This document shows positions 54,861 to 61,636 of a stretch of DNA of 64,000 nt, piece by piece; within the stretch, counting starts at the first letter, position 1; each line of letters opens with the position of its first letter. Below the pieces are notes generated by a model, which was not told the origin of the DNA, made no database searches, and worked only from the letters and a program-made list of their open reading frames with translations. The translations under genes and the position numbers were made by a program. The stretch comes from Psychrobacter sp. Pi2-52 (GTDB lineage: Bacteria; Pseudomonadota; Gammaproteobacteria; Pseudomonadales; Moraxellaceae): the NCBI RefSeq assembly GCF_904846705.1, contig NZ_CAJHBS010000014.1, positions 1 to 64,000 of the forward strand, in the 5' to 3' direction.

Positions 54861-56114
54861 ATGGCTATGCAATCTATCAAGTTACCTAGAAAACCACCAA
54901 GCTCTCCGCATCCTATCCTTAATTTAAGCTTTCGCATATTTTTTAGTGCTGCTGCGCTATTTGCCGTAGTAACGATGCTGCTATGGGCGTTTGTGTTCAC
55001 TGGTCACACGGATATCGATGCACAGGTTTTGAACCCGTTATACTGGCACGGCCATGAAATGGTGTATGGTTATGCCCTAGCAGTGGTAGCCGGGTTCTTG
55101 CTAACCGCGGTCAAGACATGGACAGGGGTGATGATGCCGCATGGTTATAAATTGCTAGGTATCTTTATCTGTTGGTTGCTGGCACGTCTGAGCTGGTTAG
55201 GTTTTGGGCTTGGCATGACGCTCATAGGTGATAGTATCTCGTGGCTATATATAGCAGCCATTTTTGATGTAGTATTTGTCGCCTCGATGGCATATGTAGT
55301 ATGTCGAGCAGTATGGCAAGTTAAACAATATAAGCAAATGGGTATCTTGGCAAAACTGGCCCTGCTGTTCTTTGGCAACGGACTCTGCTATTGGGGCATT
55401 ATTAATGCTGATATGAATACAACTAAGATAGGTATTTATCTTGGGTTCTACTTGATTATCGGTTTGGTGCTGACTATTGGCCGCCGCGTAGTACCATTTT
55501 TTATCGAACGTGGTCTTAGTATGGGTATAGAAAATTCAGAACCCGTTAAACTACGTAATAGTAATACACAAGATATCGCAAGCTTAGTGTTTTTCTTCGC
55601 CTTTTTTATTAGTGATGTATTTTACCCAAATAAATATCTGCTGACGGTTACTGCACTTGGCGTAGCAGTGATTAATATCGTACGTCTGATAGGGTGGTAT
55701 CATCACGGTATTTGGCAAAAACCATTACTTTGGTCGTTGTATATTGCGTTTTTAGGCATGTGTTTGAGTTTCTTATTGTATGCACTACAGCCTTGGCTCG
55801 GTTATCCGCACAGCATCGCTATGCATGGACTGGCGATCGCTGGTGTTGGTATGATGACGTTAGCCATGATGACTAGAGTATCTCTGGGACATACAGGTCG
55901 CAGTATTCATCAACCGCCAAAAACGGTAAGCGTTATGTATGGCTTGATGGTCTTAGTATTTATCAGCCGCGTACTACTACCGCTAGTAGATATGAGTCAT
56001 TACCTAATGTGGATTATGATGGCGCAAAGTGCTTGGATTGTGTGTTTTGTGCTATTTTGCATCAGTTATCTGCCTATGCTGGCACGTCCTCGGCCTGATG
56101 GTTTATTTGGTTAA
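54861..56114 (+). CDS. nnrS: NnrS family haem-copper membrane protein
   Basis: NnrS proteins are multi-helix membrane proteins that protect cells under nitric-oxide stress. The 417-residue protein has about 12 hydrophobic segments. It has the family signatures NPLYWHGHEMVYGYALAVVA, GFLLTAVKTWTG, the GRRVVPFFIERG stretch and MHGLAIAGVGMMTLAMMTRV followed by SLGHTGR, with several histidines placed for metal binding. A palindromic NsrR-like site lies at its promoter and an NsrR-type regulator gene follows, so NO-controlled expression is likely. Confidence 0.92.
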   Translation: MAMQSIKLPRKPPSSPHPILNLSFRIFFSAAALFAVVTMLLWAFVFTGHTDIDAQVLNPLYWHGHEMVYGYALAVVAGFLLTAVKTWTGVMMPHGYKLLGIFICWLLARLSWLGFGLGMTLIGDSISWLYIAAIFDVVFVASMAYVVCRAVWQVKQYKQMGILAKLALLFFGNGLCYWGIINADMNTTKIGIYLGFYLIIGLVLTIGRRVVPFFIERGLSMGIENSEPVKLRNSNTQDIASLVFFFAFFISDVFYPNKYLLTVTALGVAVINIVRLIGWYHHGIWQKPLLWSLYIAFLGMCLSFLLYALQPWLGYPHSIAMHGLAIAGVGMMTLAMMTRVSLGHTGRSIHQPPKTVSVMYGLMVLVFISRVLLPLVDMSHYLMWIMMAQSAWIVCFVLFCISYLPMLARPRPDGLFG

Positions 56115-56399: not shown

Positions 56400-56915
56400 A
56401 TGCGACTGACCAACTATAGTGACTACGCGCTACGCTCATTGATCTATTTGGCTGTGAAACCAGATCCATCATTATTGGCTAATATTAGCGATATCGCTGA
56501 CAGCTATGGTATTTCTAAAAGTCATTTGACCAAGATTATTCATCAGCTGGGCCAACTGGGTTATATCGAAAGTGTGCGCGGCAAAAACGGTGGCATACGA
56601 TTGGCACGTGCGCCTAAAGATATCAATTTAGGCGTATTGATCAAACAGATAGAGCCTGATTTCAATTTGGTTGAGTGCTTTGCCGTACCAGCGACCCGCA
56701 ATGATAGCGAGCAGGATGTTCATCAGGCGAATTTGCCAGTGACATTTATTGAGGAAAAAAAGAATAAATCACTAGGCTGCGTGATTAGTCCAGCCTGTCA
56801 GCTAAAAAGCGTGTTTTTTGAAGCGCTCACCGCATTTATCAATGTGCTTGAGCGTTATACGTTAGCAGATATTATTAACAATGAAGATGAGTTGGCTACT
56901 TTGCTGTTTCGATAA
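56400..56915 (+). CDS. nsrR: Rrf2-family nitric-oxide-sensing repressor (NsrR)
   Basis: NsrR binds an iron-sulfur cluster and represses NO-detoxification genes until NO attacks the cluster. The 171-residue protein has the winged helix (MRLTNYSDYALRSLIYLAVK, ISKSHLTKIIHQLGQLGYIE) and cysteines Cys93 (LVECF), Cys127 and Cys133 (GCVISPACQLK). In the common form the first two cysteines are close together; here about 28 extra residues (positions 97-124) separate them. The DNA-binding segment including SVRGKNGGIRLAR matches NsrR. It is downstream of nnrS in the same direction, with a MITE between them. Confidence 0.88.
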   Translation: MRLTNYSDYALRSLIYLAVKPDPSLLANISDIADSYGISKSHLTKIIHQLGQLGYIESVRGKNGGIRLARAPKDINLGVLIKQIEPDFNLVECFAVPATRNDSEQDVHQANLPVTFIEEKKNKSLGCVISPACQLKSVFFEALTAFINVLERYTLADIINNEDELATLLFR

Positions 56916-57040: not shown

Positions 57041-57787
57041 TTAGGCGTTTTCTAGTTTTGGACGTGCTTTCTTAACGGCTTTCACCAGTGCTTTCTCAAA
57101 CCCACCTTCTTTGAACTGAACAAGATAAGAATGCGCAGCACAGAAATTGCGTACGTCACGCCATTCATGAGCCAAATTGGTCGCCCAGTCGCAGTATTGC
57201 GCGCCAGCGTTCGGCTCGTTTTTCAGGGCTTTTTTGGTCGTAGGATGCAGTATTAGCTCAGGTAATACAGCTTCTAATAGCTTCGTTGGTGGACTCATAA
57301 AAGTATCATCTACGTGTAAGCTTTGACTGGCAGGATGATAAGCCAATAAAGAACCTGCATGAATCATCTCATTGGGCGAGATATAATAAATGCCCTCTGA
57401 TATTGAAAACTTAAGCTCAGGATAGCGTGCAGCGACTGCGTCACTTTCAACCAAGTCATCTGCCCAATCGATTTCTGGTACTTTTTTATGATGACGGCTA
57501 CTGCCATAAAAGGTGGCTTGCGGGAAGTCTTTGGCCATTTGAGCACAGCTGACTGTATGAAAAGGATGTACGTTCAGCACCGCTTCGACATCTTGACCAT
57601 TGTTAGTGAGTGCCATGACCTCATCTCGAACATCACCCGTTAGGGCGTAACTGTCCAAAAAGATAAATTTCCCTGATGGTAGTTTGATCAGAGAGCATTG
57701 AGTGCCAATGTTTAACACACCACCGAGACGGAATGTTCCGCGTATGTTCCAAAATCCTGCGCCTAAATCATGAATGTGATCAGTCAT
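57041..57787 (-). CDS. Metallo-beta-lactamase-fold-like protein, paralogue 1
   Basis: I do not recognise a characterised family. The 248-residue protein has an MBL-like strand pattern: CSLIKLPSGKFIFLDSYALT at the start of the first sheet, then VEAVLNVHPFHTVSCAQMAK where the MBL motif would be HxHxDH but only His74 and His77 remain, and the later LHVDDTFMSPP with an aspartate pair where MBL enzymes hold a metal aspartate. A last histidine occurs in LHPTTKKALK. The metal site may therefore be reduced or mononuclear. No signal peptide. It has a tandem paralogue 130 bases upstream, about 70% identical by eye. Confidence 0.75.
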   Translation of the reverse strand: MTDHIHDLGAGFWNIRGTFRLGGVLNIGTQCSLIKLPSGKFIFLDSYALTGDVRDEVMALTNNGQDVEAVLNVHPFHTVSCAQMAKDFPQATFYGSSRHHKKVPEIDWADDLVESDAVAARYPELKFSISEGIYYISPNEMIHAGSLLAYHPASQSLHVDDTFMSPPTKLLEAVLPELILHPTTKKALKNEPNAGAQYCDWATNLAHEWRDVRNFCAAHSYLVQFKEGGFEKALVKAVKKARPKLENA

Positions 57788-57919: not shown

Positions 57920-58669
57920 TTATGCCTTCTCAAGCTCAGGGCGAGCCAGATCAATCGCTGATATAAGTGCTGACTCAAATTGACCTTCATCAAATACAAC
58001 CAATCCTGAGTGGGCACCGCAAAAATGACGACCATCACGCCATTTGTGTGCCAGCTCTACTGCCCAATCACAATAGTGCTTAGCTGCGTTTGGCTCAGCT
58101 TTGAGCGCTTTTTTGGTAGTAGGGTGTAAGCCTAGGTTAGGCTGCACGGCATTTATTAACTTGGAAGGGGGTATCTCAAAGGTATCATCGATATAGATGC
58201 TTTGGCTAGCAGGATGATAGACCAATAAGGAGCTGGCATGCACCGTCTCGTCAGGTGAGATGTAATGGATGCCTTGAGGTATAGAGAATTTGATTTCAGG
58301 GTAGCGCGCAGCAACGGCATCGCTTTCGACCAAGTCGTCTGCCCAATTAACTTCAGGTACTTGTTTCGGATGTCGGCTACTGCCATAGAATGTGGCTTGC
58401 GGAAAGTCTTTGGCCATTCGAGCACAGTGTACTGTATGAAACGGATGAACATTGAGGACAGCTTCGACATTTTGACCGTCATTGGTCAATGCCATGACTT
58501 GCTGACGCACATCGCCAGTTAATGTATAGCTATCTAAGAATATAAATCGACCTGATGGTAGTCTTATGAGCGCACACTGGACACCAATATCAAGGATACC
58601 GTTTTTGATAAATGATCCTCGAATACTCCAGAACCCTGCGCCCAAATCATACATTTCATCAGTCATCAA
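57920..58669 (-). CDS. Metallo-beta-lactamase-fold-like protein, paralogue 2
   Basis: The 249-residue protein is the tandem copy of the gene at 57041. The conserved blocks are unchanged: LPSGRFIFLDSYTLTGDVR, EAVLNVHPFHTVHCARMAKD, FPQATFYGSSRH, WADDLVESDAVAARYPE, IDDTFEIPPSKL and GLHPTTKKALK. Differences cluster at both ends and in surface helices. Here the residue after HPFHTV is His rather than Ser, giving a third nearby histidine (HPFHTVH) that paralogue 1 lacks, so the two may bind metal differently. Separate ribosome sites and a 130-base gap suggest possible independent expression. Function unknown. Confidence 0.75.
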   Translation of the reverse strand: MMTDEMYDLGAGFWSIRGSFIKNGILDIGVQCALIRLPSGRFIFLDSYTLTGDVRQQVMALTNDGQNVEAVLNVHPFHTVHCARMAKDFPQATFYGSSRHPKQVPEVNWADDLVESDAVAARYPEIKFSIPQGIHYISPDETVHASSLLVYHPASQSIYIDDTFEIPPSKLINAVQPNLGLHPTTKKALKAEPNAAKHYCDWAVELAHKWRDGRHFCGAHSGLVVFDEGQFESALISAIDLARPELEKA

Positions 58670-58976: not shown

Positions 58977-59921
58977 TTATAAACAGTCTTCGTAATCATA
59001 GGCTGAGATACGAGTATCGTCTTTGTAGCTGTCATTGCCACATAAGAATTTATCGAAACGGGTATCACCATTAATATAACGCTGCATCCATGCGATAGCA
59101 GGCTTGCTCAATAGCTTTTCGTTAAAACGATGACTGGCACAGAAATGACTGCCGTTGTTAATCTCGACCTTCATTTTTGGACCGTCAGCTTTTTGATAAA
59201 AAGTATTGGTATATTTTTTATTCGGGGCGATACGGTCATTTTCACAAGCGATGAATAGAGCAGGCGTATTCATCGCACCATAGCTCGTATCGTGATAGGG
59301 CGTTTGTGCAATGATGGCTTGCACCGTACTGCGCTCAGTTGCCAATCGTAGCGCACCGCCGCCGCCCATTGACCAGCCAATCGCGCCCAAACGATTTTGA
59401 TCTATCATATGACCTACTGTTTCATCAGCGATGAGATGATCGAGAGCCGCGCTCAATTGCTCAGCACGGCTATCTGGGTTATCGTAAATGGAGCTAGTAT
59501 TAATAGTAATAACGACAAATCCCCAAGAGGCCAAACGCGGTCCCCACCATTTGATAGAAGATTCATAAGACACGTAACCTGGCACTACCGCGATACCACC
59601 TAGTAGACCACAGTTAGCAGTATCCGTTGGATAGTGTATGGTACCGCCACCAAAGCCATTGGCTGATTGGCGACTCACGTGCTTGGACTTTACAGAAAAC
59701 GGACCGTTATCACGTGTTTTTGTGAGCTCAGTAGCAGTGATAGCGTCATCCTTTATACAGTCTACTGACGCTAGTGATTTTGTAGAGTTAAATGTCGGTA
59801 CGACTGGATTAAGACCTTCAACCCTAGTTTCGGACGCAGTTACTTCTGCTACAGCCATCGTAGAGAAAACCAATGTACTCATCGCGATAATAAGTTTTAA
59901 AAGCACCATATTTTTCATCAT
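58977..59921 (-). CDS. Secreted PETase-like polyester hydrolase (type II, cutinase-like)
   Basis: Alpha/beta hydrolase of the cutinase/PETase family, which splits ester bonds in polyesters. The 314-residue protein begins with a Sec signal (cleavage near MAVA-E, residue 25). The triad is Ser184 in GWSMGGGG, Asp229 in ACENDRIAP and His259 in GSHFCA; Tyr116 (PGYVSYESSIKWWGPRLASW) and Met185 would form the oxyanion hole. Cys226 and Cys261 correspond to the extra disulfide found in type II PETases, and Cys294 and Cys313 to the C-terminal disulfide. Trp183 matches IsPETase Trp159; Phe260 replaces its Ser238. Two further cysteines, Cys55 and Cys104, may form a third bond. No obvious operon partner. 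Confidence 0.85.
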   Translation of the reverse strand: MMKNMVLLKLIIAMSTLVFSTMAVAEVTASETRVEGLNPVVPTFNSTKSLASVDCIKDDAITATELTKTRDNGPFSVKSKHVSRQSANGFGGGTIHYPTDTANCGLLGGIAVVPGYVSYESSIKWWGPRLASWGFVVITINTSSIYDNPDSRAEQLSAALDHLIADETVGHMIDQNRLGAIGWSMGGGGALRLATERSTVQAIIAQTPYHDTSYGAMNTPALFIACENDRIAPNKKYTNTFYQKADGPKMKVEINNGSHFCASHRFNEKLLSKPAIAWMQRYINGDTRFDKFLCGNDSYKDDTRISAYDYEDCL

Positions 59922-60406
59922 AGTAAATTGTATTCTAAAAGATTGTGTAGTCGTGCACGTCTCTAGGTTAGAAAAAATAGACGTAGGTAGTGATTGTTAA
60001 CTGTCACTGTTATCAATCGTTAAAGTAGTTAAATGATTAACAAATGCGTCAACAGCATCTGACCATACTACCCTGTATATGCAATAAACGTAACGTTGAT
60101 CATGACCTTGTGAGTCGAAAACTGTCTTTACCGTCTTAAGTCGAAATGTGATTCCTAGTCAAGTTTTTCTACGATAATCTCGAACCCAAATAAAGAATCT
60201 ATCAAGAGGCAATAACACTTTTAAACCTGAGTATATTGATGAATGTGCTACCATAATTGGCTTGTAATTATGATGAACATTTATCGTTTAATAACGGTGC
60301 TTTTGCTTATACATTTAGCATAAATCACCTTTATTCCTCTCTACCATCCACGCCAGTGACGGTTATCATTTACAGTCATGGTATAACCAATATAGTCAGA
60401 TCCCCT
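59922..60406. other. Intergenic region between the polyester hydrolase and an MFS gene
   Basis: It is AT-rich and contains divergent promoters that I cannot place exactly. A TTATCATTTAC word at 60363-60373 equals the core of both Fur-type boxes at 6180 and 12498. An open frame through 60257-60406 starts with TTG and is probably not translated. Confidence 0.4.
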
Positions 60407-61636
60407 GTGAATAATTCTAAAGATCAGATTCAAGATATAACAGCTGTGCCACCAGTCACATCCAATCATTCAACGTCGTGGATATTGAAGCTCACAATTG
60501 GCCTGATAGGTATGTTTGCTTTTTTGCAAGTGTATTCTATTCAAGCGGTGCTACCGGTCATGATGGTGGACTTTGCTGCGACCGAAGTACAGGCTGGTAT
60601 GATCGTTGGTGCCACTGTGTTAGCCATTGCGATTATGTCACCATTTCTAGGCATGCTCTCAGATGCGGTCGGGCGCAAGTCGTTTATCGTTGGCGCTTTA
60701 TTGTTTTTAGCGATACCAACAGCACTCATTGCCCAGAGCTCGAGCATTGAATGGGTCGGCATTTGGCGCTTCATGCAAGGATTGTCTGTACCAGGTATTA
60801 CGGTGGTGACGATTGCTTATATCGGTGAGGAGTTTGCGGGCCGGGCGATGACTGAGCTGATGTCCTTTTATGTGTCAGGATGCGTGCTTGGCGGCTTTAT
60901 GGGTCGGTTCTTGCTTGGGCATTTGCATGAGCTGATTGGCTGGCGTCATGGTTACTATGTGATGACGGCAATGACCTTGCTAGGCGCGATATGGGTCAGC
61001 AAGATGCTACCATCGTCTCGTCACTTTGTGGCCAATCCTAATTTTCGCTCAGCGATACAGACGCTGGGTGAGCATGTCACCAATCGCTATGTGGTAACAG
61101 CATGTCTGCTTGGCGCTTGCGTGCTGTTCTCCCTTGTAGGCTGCTTCACTTTTATCAATTTACATTTGGCAGATAAGCCTTATGAGCTTGGTACTGGTGC
61201 GCTCGCCAATATTTTTGCGGTATATTTGCTTGGTGTTATTATCACGCCATTATCTACGACATTGCTACGACGGTTCGGCTCAGCGCGTACAGTACGGGTA
61301 GCTATCGTCGTATCTATGGTTGGATTGTTATTAACTTTGGTCACGCCATTATGGGGGGTGATTATAGGACTGGCTATTATGTCGTCAGGTGTATTTATCA
61401 CGCAGTCGGCGACCATCAGCTATATCGCGGTCAATGTGAAAAAAGGCCGCTCATTAGCATCGGGTCTATATTATATGGGCTACTATACAGGCGGTACGCT
61501 AGGAGCATGGCTGGGTGGCATAGCTTATGCGCGAGGGCAGTGGTCTCTTACCGTATGGTTGTTATTATTTGTGCAGGTACTGGCGTTATTAATAGCCAGT
61601 TTTGGAATGATTAAAACCACAGTACGGGTAAAGTGA
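60407..61636 (+). CDS. MFS transporter, YnfM/AraJ-like (DHA1)
   Basis: Twelve-helix proton-coupled transporter of the DHA1 group. Recognisable elements are AVLPVMMVDFAATEVQAGMI in the first helices, motif A LGMLSDAVGRKSFIVGA, LSVPGITVVTIAYIGEEF, and FMGRFLLGHLHELIGWRHGY; these match E. coli YnfM in order. The longest frame starts at a TTG at 60257, but its first 50 residues do not look like a transporter N-terminus, so a GTG at 60407 (VNNSKDQIQ) is proposed, giving 410 residues. It is a single gene; the substrate is unknown. Confidence 0.83.
   Translation: MNNSKDQIQDITAVPPVTSNHSTSWILKLTIGLIGMFAFLQVYSIQAVLPVMMVDFAATEVQAGMIVGATVLAIAIMSPFLGMLSDAVGRKSFIVGALLFLAIPTALIAQSSSIEWVGIWRFMQGLSVPGITVVTIAYIGEEFAGRAMTELMSFYVSGCVLGGFMGRFLLGHLHELIGWRHGYYVMTAMTLLGAIWVSKMLPSSRHFVANPNFRSAIQTLGEHVTNRYVVTACLLGACVLFSLVGCFTFINLHLADKPYELGTGALANIFAVYLLGVIITPLSTTLLRRFGSARTVRVAIVVSMVGLLLTLVTPLWGVIIGLAIMSSGVFITQSATISYIAVNVKKGRSLASGLYYMGYYTGGTLGAWLGGIAYARGQWSLTVWLLLFVQVLALLIASFGMIKTTVRVK

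Follow-up and report, generated by a model that had tools for sequence, protein, structure and literature searches.

The locus described here raises a plain question. Does a Psychrobacter gene with the features of a PETase encode a polyester hydrolase and, if so, is any activity on PET a response to plastic or something older? The gene lies in the window, by which we mean the whole 64,000-nucleotide stretch of DNA that was analysed (Psychrobacter sp. Pi2-52, contig NZ_CAJHBS010000014.1). It is an open reading frame of 314 codons, on the reverse strand, with no internal stops. The original prediction was of a secreted, type II PETase-like polyester hydrolase in a probable cold-adapted member of the Moraxellaceae. 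The host does belong to that family, and its genus is Psychrobacter. We are confident that the product is the Psychrobacter counterpart of the enzyme Mors1. It would be a secreted, cold-adapted carboxylester hydrolase of broad range (EC 3.1.1), with secretion, disulfide bonds, catalysis and substrates read across mostly from Mors1. Coordinates are collected in Table 1, and published work is cited, by accession, from extracts of the papers. A scan for promoters and terminators at the gene gave fewer sites than in shuffled sequences, and we claim nothing from it.

Table 1. Features of the PETase-like gene of Psychrobacter sp. Pi2-52 and its neighbours (positions in the window).
Feature	Position	Strand	Basis or remark
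PETase-like polyester hydrolase/lipase CDS, type IIa by sequence	58977..59921	-	ATG start, stop included, 314 aa
Probable Sec signal peptide, residues 1-25 (cut 25/26, after ...MAVA and before E)	59847..59921	-	By eye, from sequence and alignment A1
Nucleophile elbow G182-W-S184-M-G186	59364..59378	-	Invariant in 23 rows of A1; S184 = IsPETase S160
Catalytic Asp229 (predicted)	59235..59237	-	Alignment to IsPETase (D206)
Catalytic His259 (predicted)	59145..59147	-	Alignment to IsPETase (H237)
Cys55, putative third-disulfide partner (Mors1 Cys60)	59757..59759	-	39/39 Psychrobacter rows, Pi2-52 included
Cys104, putative third-disulfide partner (Mors1 Cys109), on a two-residue insertion	59610..59612	-	39/39 Psychrobacter rows; gap in 11/11 other type II rows
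Cys226, predicted active-site disulfide with Cys261	59244..59246	-	= IsPETase C203
Cys261, predicted active-site disulfide with Cys226	59139..59141	-	= IsPETase C239
Cys294, predicted C-terminal disulfide with Cys313	59040..59042	-	= IsPETase C273
Cys313, predicted C-terminal disulfide with Cys294	58983..58985	-	= IsPETase C289; 38/39 Psychrobacter rows
Tyr209 (IsPETase Trp185 site; Mors1 Tyr214)	59295..59297	-	Tyr in 39/39 Psychrobacter rows, 3/11 other type II rows
MFS transporter, divergent neighbour	60257..61636	+	PF07690; adjoins gene in 26/27 loci
Unclassified neighbour, copy b	57920..58669	-	No Pfam/NCBIfam family; 1-2 copies beside gene in 26/27 loci
Unclassified neighbour, copy a	57041..57787	-	DUF4336 at E 0.1, below cut-off; synteny

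The Pfam PETase family, PF12740, matches residues 70-308 of the protein (profile positions 20-258 of 263) with 285.4 bits. The cut-off is 28, so membership of the family is not due to chance. The NCBIfam equivalog for BHET hydrolase (NF051441) scored 234.9 bits, below its cut-off of 520. The solved structure closest in sequence is 8spk ('Lipase 1', 466 bits), followed by 7z6b (248 bits). The title of 8spk is 'Crystal structure of Antarctic PET-degrading enzyme'. We take it to be Mors1 of Moraxella sp. TA144, because the Mors1 residue numbers in the extract of PMC11509169 fit the 8spk sequence. An AlphaFold2 model, made with 37 diverse homologues as input, had a mean pLDDT of 83.0 and superseded a weak earlier model from Psychrobacter sequences alone (65.9). 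Residues 261-270, the active-site loop, are among its less certain parts (mean pLDDT 74). Laid over the 8spk crystal, the model matched 264 residues at an rmsd of 1.2 Å (Z 46.3; TM 0.97 by target length), with the second entry at Z 41.1. Computation thus shows the protein to have the family and the alpha/beta-hydrolase fold of a PETase. Judged by this overlay, Ser184, Asp229 and His259 are not predicted to lie apart.

Type II PETases are defined by an additional disulfide and an extended loop, and type IIa by Phe or Tyr at the site of IsPETase Ser238 (Joo et al., 2018; PMC5785972, in extract). A script re-count found W183, S184, M185, D229, H259 and F260 in the Pi2-52 protein, and the nucleophile box is G-W-S-M-G-G-G-G. 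In the alignment to IsPETase, W183 falls at W159, a type II trait, and F260 at S238. The residues named in the original prediction (the GWSMGGGG box, the Asp229/His259 pair, Trp183 at the Trp159 site and the four type II cysteines) were therefore all confirmed. For comparison across the genus we used 39 Psychrobacter rows, being the distinct sequences among L002-L028, L046-L057, L064 and L098 together with Pi2-52 (L016, L047 and L050 excluded), a set that covers part of the 50 genomes with the gene. The Ser-His-Asp triad is present in all 39 and in the 11 other type II rows. Phe occupies the Ser238 site in 38 of the 39, with Leu in one.

Because of F260, the Pi2-52 enzyme is, on sequence, a type IIa PETase by the published criteria, which refines the type II call made at the outset. 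That call had likened Phe260 to ordinary cutinases. The residue is right, but it is not a cutinase trait only, being the type IIa mark in the extract of PMC5785972. The beta8-alpha6 (active-site) loop has the length of that in Mors1 and is 1 residue shorter than in IsPETase and PET6, in an alignment with no type I row. The Mors1 loop region is 2 residues longer than that of LCC (15 versus 13; PMC11509169, in extract). Going by those lengths, the analogy suggests that the Pi2-52 loop is extended in the type II sense. Type IIb is ruled out by F260 and by the different, shorter loop. Type III enzymes of the HaloPETase1 kind have G-H-S-Q-G and lack the active-site disulfide (extract of PMC12442448); the Pi2-52 protein has G-W-S-M-G with C226 and C261, and type III was rejected. 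Its C-terminal helix reads NGDTRFDKFLC, that of Mors1 NNDTRFDKFLC, and neither is a literal match to the pattern that we used for the M5-PETase motif DxDxR(Y)xxFxC. The authors of PMC12224614 nonetheless count the TA144 enzyme as an M5-PETase, and they name its sequence as the oldest in their set. PSL2, a studied Psychrobacter lipase, was rejected as a likeness; it is a different enzyme of the GDSAG (HSL) type (PMC11547725, in extract).

Subsite I, on which the original prediction was silent, departs from IsPETase at three places (Trp185 to Tyr209, Gln119 to Asn148 and Ser214 to Tyr237). Three of the four conserved subsite I residues, Tyr87, Met161 and Ile208, are kept, the fourth being Trp185. 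Relative to PET6, the alignment places a 2-residue gap after Tyr209. At the IsPETase 214 site, 36 of the 39 Psychrobacter rows have Tyr and all 11 other type II rows have His. According to the extract of PMC11509169, Mors1 has Tyr214 and Asp153 at two conserved subsite I sites, and it degrades PET nonetheless.

The protein has six cysteines (55, 104, 226, 261, 294 and 313, by script re-count). The single Psychrobacter row without Cys313 is probably L021, the reading frame of which has a different end. Cys55 and Cys104 lie opposite gaps in IsPETase, as expected from the suggestion that they form an additional bond absent from that enzyme. The pair stands, but the bond is not a new one. The 1.6 Å structure of Mors1 has a third disulfide, Cys60-Cys109, beside the active-site pair Cys231-Cys266 (PMC11509169, in extract). 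Published Mors1 numbers equal Pi2-52 numbers plus a constant 5 (C226 and C261 become 231 and 266; Y209 becomes 214). Since Cys55 and Cys104 match Cys60 and Cys109 at that same offset, a Cys55-Cys104 disulfide is very likely by analogy. As a separate observation, the engineered PET2 of PDB entry 7ecb has a pair of cysteines introduced by design (R47C-G89C).

The review text of PMC11509169, as far as extracted, states that PET6 shares the third bond of Mors1. In the extract of PMC9679969, residues 27 and 30 form the third disulfide of PET6. Our PET6 row begins after those N-terminal cysteines, and at the Cys104 site PET6 has no cysteine (Gly in one alignment, a gap in the other). By eye, most of the 11 type II rows from outside Psychrobacter, 8 in all, have a similarly close N-terminal cysteine pair (L088, L089, L091, L092, L093, L095, L096 and L097). 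Both L090 rows are without it, and the L094 row begins beyond that region. In 8 of 11 rows, the residue aligned with Cys55 is one cysteine of this pair, and none of the 11 has a counterpart of Cys104. Judged on these sequences, the Mors1/Psychrobacter third disulfide is separate from the 27-30 bond of PET6, because the PET6 pair sits at 27 and 30 and no row among the 11 has a residue at Cys104. Some of these relatives have features of their own. In L088 (487-1305, reverse strand) and L089 (512-1306, reverse strand), the PETase homologue is followed by a reading frame that resembles, by eye, a lipase-specific foldase. L090 (1357-2295 and 2662-3591) holds tandem PETase-like genes in one Pseudomonadales genome.

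Secretion, part of the original prediction, is likely from the N-terminus as read by eye. Following export by Sec and removal of the signal, the protein would adopt its alpha/beta-hydrolase fold with three disulfides. The 226-261 bond would lie beside the active site, 294-313 would be C-terminal, and 55-104 would link the N-terminal segment with the loop that precedes strand 107-113. With His259 and Asp229 activating it, Ser184 would attack esters across an open groove, with the backbone amides of Tyr116 and Met185 (IsPETase Tyr87 and Met161) as the oxyanion hole. Near 25 °C, the enzyme would cut short-chain triglycerides and aliphatic polyesters readily and amorphous PET at a low rate.

The closest characterised homologue is not a lipase lacking polyester activity; Mors1 degrades both PET and PCL. 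Extracts of PMC11509169 give an optimum of 25 °C for clearing of PCL nanoparticles, a Tm of 52 °C and, for amorphous PET film, a weight loss of 1.98% in 6 days at 25 °C. The Moraxella sp. polyesterase MoPE released PET monomers from PET powder at a level almost 300-fold below LCC-ICCG (PMC11187625, in extract). An ISME J paper ties MoPE to the TA144 sequence (PMC12224614, in extract), and we infer that MoPE appears to be the same enzyme as Mors1. By analogy, a modest PET activity like that of Mors1/MoPE is expected of the Pi2-52 enzyme. The same ISME J extract reports Moraxellaceae M5-PETase transcripts in seawater.

PET is probably not the natural substrate, which would instead be a biological ester, either a lipid or a cutin-like polyester. 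Searches of the Pi2-52 genome bear on this point. The tannase family PF07519 had no match there, nor in the control genomes of that search. Because no control matched, the search was run over 56 genomes of the order, where 9 matched, 8 of them over the cut-off. We take PF07519 to be the family that includes MHETase. The one PF00848 ring hydroxylase found was benzoate 1,2-dioxygenase BenA (TIGR03229, 840 bits), beside a catechol 1,2-dioxygenase. With no tannase-family match and a sole ring hydroxylase of benzoate type, we rejected a PET-assimilation pathway in Pi2-52. That PET is an unlikely natural substrate is on this evidence suggestive only, because PETase and MHETase need not share one bacterium (PMC12224614, in extract). 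Breakdown of extracellular lipid or biopolyester is the more likely role. An acyl-CoA ligase near the gene (by Pfam) would fit a lipid role; it is no evidence of a pathway, because genomes that lack the PETase retain it, at 81% identity or more in 17 of 18 PETase-lacking stretches (only 24% in L161).

The enzyme could instead be a secreted lipase or esterase, its activity on PET and polyesters absent or negligible in the Pi2-52 copy despite the likeness to Mors1. The TA144 enzyme is itself annotated as a triacylglycerol lipase (P19833; PMC12224614, in extract), and the searches above found no PET-use pathway. In addition, 63 of 261 residues differ from Mors1, among them Asn148 in place of Asp153. 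The computed pI also differs, at 6.0 for Pi2-52 residues 26-314 and 8.8 for a shorter segment of the Mors1 chain, the boundaries not being the same; surface charge may thus differ between the two. However, a table of 29 key positions shows agreement with Mors1 for the catalytic residues, the cysteines and the main subsite residues, with differences at 148 and 264. Moreover, PET is hydrolysed both by Mors1 and by the more distant PET6 (extracts of PMC11509169 and PMC9679969). We consider a lipase devoid of polyester activity improbable and retain the broad-range, Mors1-like hydrolase.

How widely the enzyme occurs was assessed at several levels. A contig scan of close relatives gave 27 loci, all Psychrobacter, and the gene was found in 50 of 105 Psychrobacter genomes (E ≤ 1e-20). 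Across the family, PF12740 matched 46 of 249 genomes (E ≤ 1e-20), 45 of them Psychrobacter and one of another genus (102 bits). At the level of the order, 18 of 293 genomes matched (E ≤ 1e-40), in 9 of 118 genera. At that of the class, the matches were 3 of 369, namely the Pi2-52 genome and a pair from a single other genus. In a maximum-likelihood tree of 53 rows, the 39 Psychrobacter rows and Mors1 lie beyond one branch with support of 100/100. Mors1 pairs with L057 (99/93; 240 of 261 residues identical). The deep joins are unsure, with long branches at IsPETase and at the Psychrobacter plus Mors1 stem, and the place of Mors1 is independent of them. Mors1 nests inside the Psychrobacter clade. 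A table footnote in the extract of PMC6835263 gives Psychrobacter sp. TA144 as formerly Moraxella TA144. Among the literature matches listed, as extracted, none describes a Psychrobacter PETase under that name, a weak result because the literature places the TA144 enzyme in Moraxella. Psychrobacter copies are as little as 59% identical to the Pi2-52 protein.

Individual genomes showed some irregularities. G019, a Psychrobacter genome, has two PETase copies, L057 and one on contig 11. In L013 (5001-5942), residues 1-120 match Pi2-52 at 114 of 120 positions and the remainder at 148 of 194, perhaps through intragenic recombination. The PETase of Psychrobacter sp. JCM 18901 (L016 5001-5735, the same as L050) is frameshifted after about 240 codons, by decay or assembly error.

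The locus itself is constant. In 26 of 27 loci, the PETase gene is flanked by the MFS gene and by one or two copies of the unclassified protein; in the exception, L014, it lies elsewhere in the genome. Copies a and b are related and in tandem; at E 0.001, neither has a match in Pfam or NCBIfam. Copy a has no PDB relative at E up to 1; the two possibly have a metallo-beta-lactamase-like fold. At the edge of the neighbourhood (54861-56114 and 56400-56915, forward strand) an Rrf2 regulator (best NCBIfam match NsrR, below cut-off) adjoins a membrane protein that by eye is NnrS-like, perhaps as a nitric-oxide response pair. The MFS gene is kept in all 29 PETase-lacking genomes examined (of 55). In 18 of those 29, no trace of a PETase was detected beside it at E 1e-5, and the unclassified protein was nearby in 12 of the 18 and absent in 6. 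On the MFS tree (54 rows; L016 and L018 excluded, L014 without match), the minimum number of changes in PETase presence is 4, two of them required by starred branches, compared with about 18 for shuffled labels, gain and loss looking alike in this count. PETase presence thus falls in clusters and has been gained or lost only a few times. The PETase also diverges more quickly than the proteins encoded beside it; in L017, for example, it has 66% identity compared with 85% for the MFS protein and 92% for the acyl-CoA ligase. Values of dN/dS were 0.13-0.30 in all nine pairs computed between Pi2-52 and nine relatives, which indicates purifying selection. Matches to plasmids (5 records) were all below 60% identity, with none covering 80% of the query, and no phage record matched; carriage of the Pi2-52 lineage by plasmid or phage was rejected on these searches. 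Taken together, the conserved locus, the few changes of state, the dN/dS values and the within-genus divergence point to an old gene under selection.

That a PET-adapted enzyme was recently acquired and spread horizontally in response to plastic pollution would suit the patchy occurrence, the faster divergence and the displaced L014 copy, but is scarcely credible given the shared locus, the depth of divergence, the few changes of presence, the poor plasmid and absent phage matches, and a TA144 homologue published in 1990 (according to a reference list in extract).

We tentatively go one step further, to a reading that we hold a little less probable than its opposite: the Psychrobacter enzymes, Mors1 included, would form a subtype of their own within type IIa, a long-established natural lineage of ester-degrading enzymes for which PET activity is a side effect that far predates plastics. 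The separate subtype is suggested by the third disulfide, unseen in the other PETase-like sequences examined, by Tyr for Trp185 and (mostly) Tyr for Ser/His214, and by the shortened adjoining loop and shorter active-site loop. The age of the lineage is suggested by purifying selection, by the single conserved locus and by divergence to about 59% within the genus; both this depth and the constancy of the locus argue for a PET activity that predates plastic. The Pi2-52 enzyme adds a member to a known kind, of which the closest member, Mors1, was already crystallised and assayed. A cold-active PET hydrolase known from one Antarctic strain would extend to roughly half of the Psychrobacter genomes sampled. 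These offer a natural panel, at 59-95% identity to the Pi2-52 protein, for studies of cold activity and of the third disulfide, and the value lies in this wider clade rather than in the single Pi2-52 gene. The results also touch on two points in the literature: Psychrobacter is the genus to which the 'Moraxella' enzyme belongs, and Mors1 and PET6 have different third disulfides.

Of the known enzymes, Mors1 (8spk) is the most similar, with 198 of 261 aligned residues identical, the same triad, three cysteine pairs, loop length and clade, Phe at the Ser238 site and Tyr at the Trp185 site. It differs in having Asp153 for Asn148, Tyr for His264 and LAPYH for QTPYH at Tyr209, and the computed pI is lower in Pi2-52. 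PET6 of Vibrio gazogenes (7z6b), grouped with type IIa in the extract of PMC11509169, shares 123 of 233 residues, the Phe at the Ser238 site and the two type II disulfides (PMC9679969, in extract). Conversely, it retains Trp185, has a loop 1 residue longer and bears its third disulfide at 27/30. PE-H of Pseudomonas (Halopseudomonas) aestusnigri (6sbn/6scd; type IIa according to the extract of PMC12442448) has the PETase fold and scored 219 bits, with 44% identity in a structural alignment with the 6scd mutant. IsPETase of Ideonella sakaiensis, a type IIb enzyme, shares the triad, Trp159, Tyr87, Met161, Ile208 and two disulfides, but only 111 of 254 residues are identical and it lacks the Cys55-Cys104 pair.
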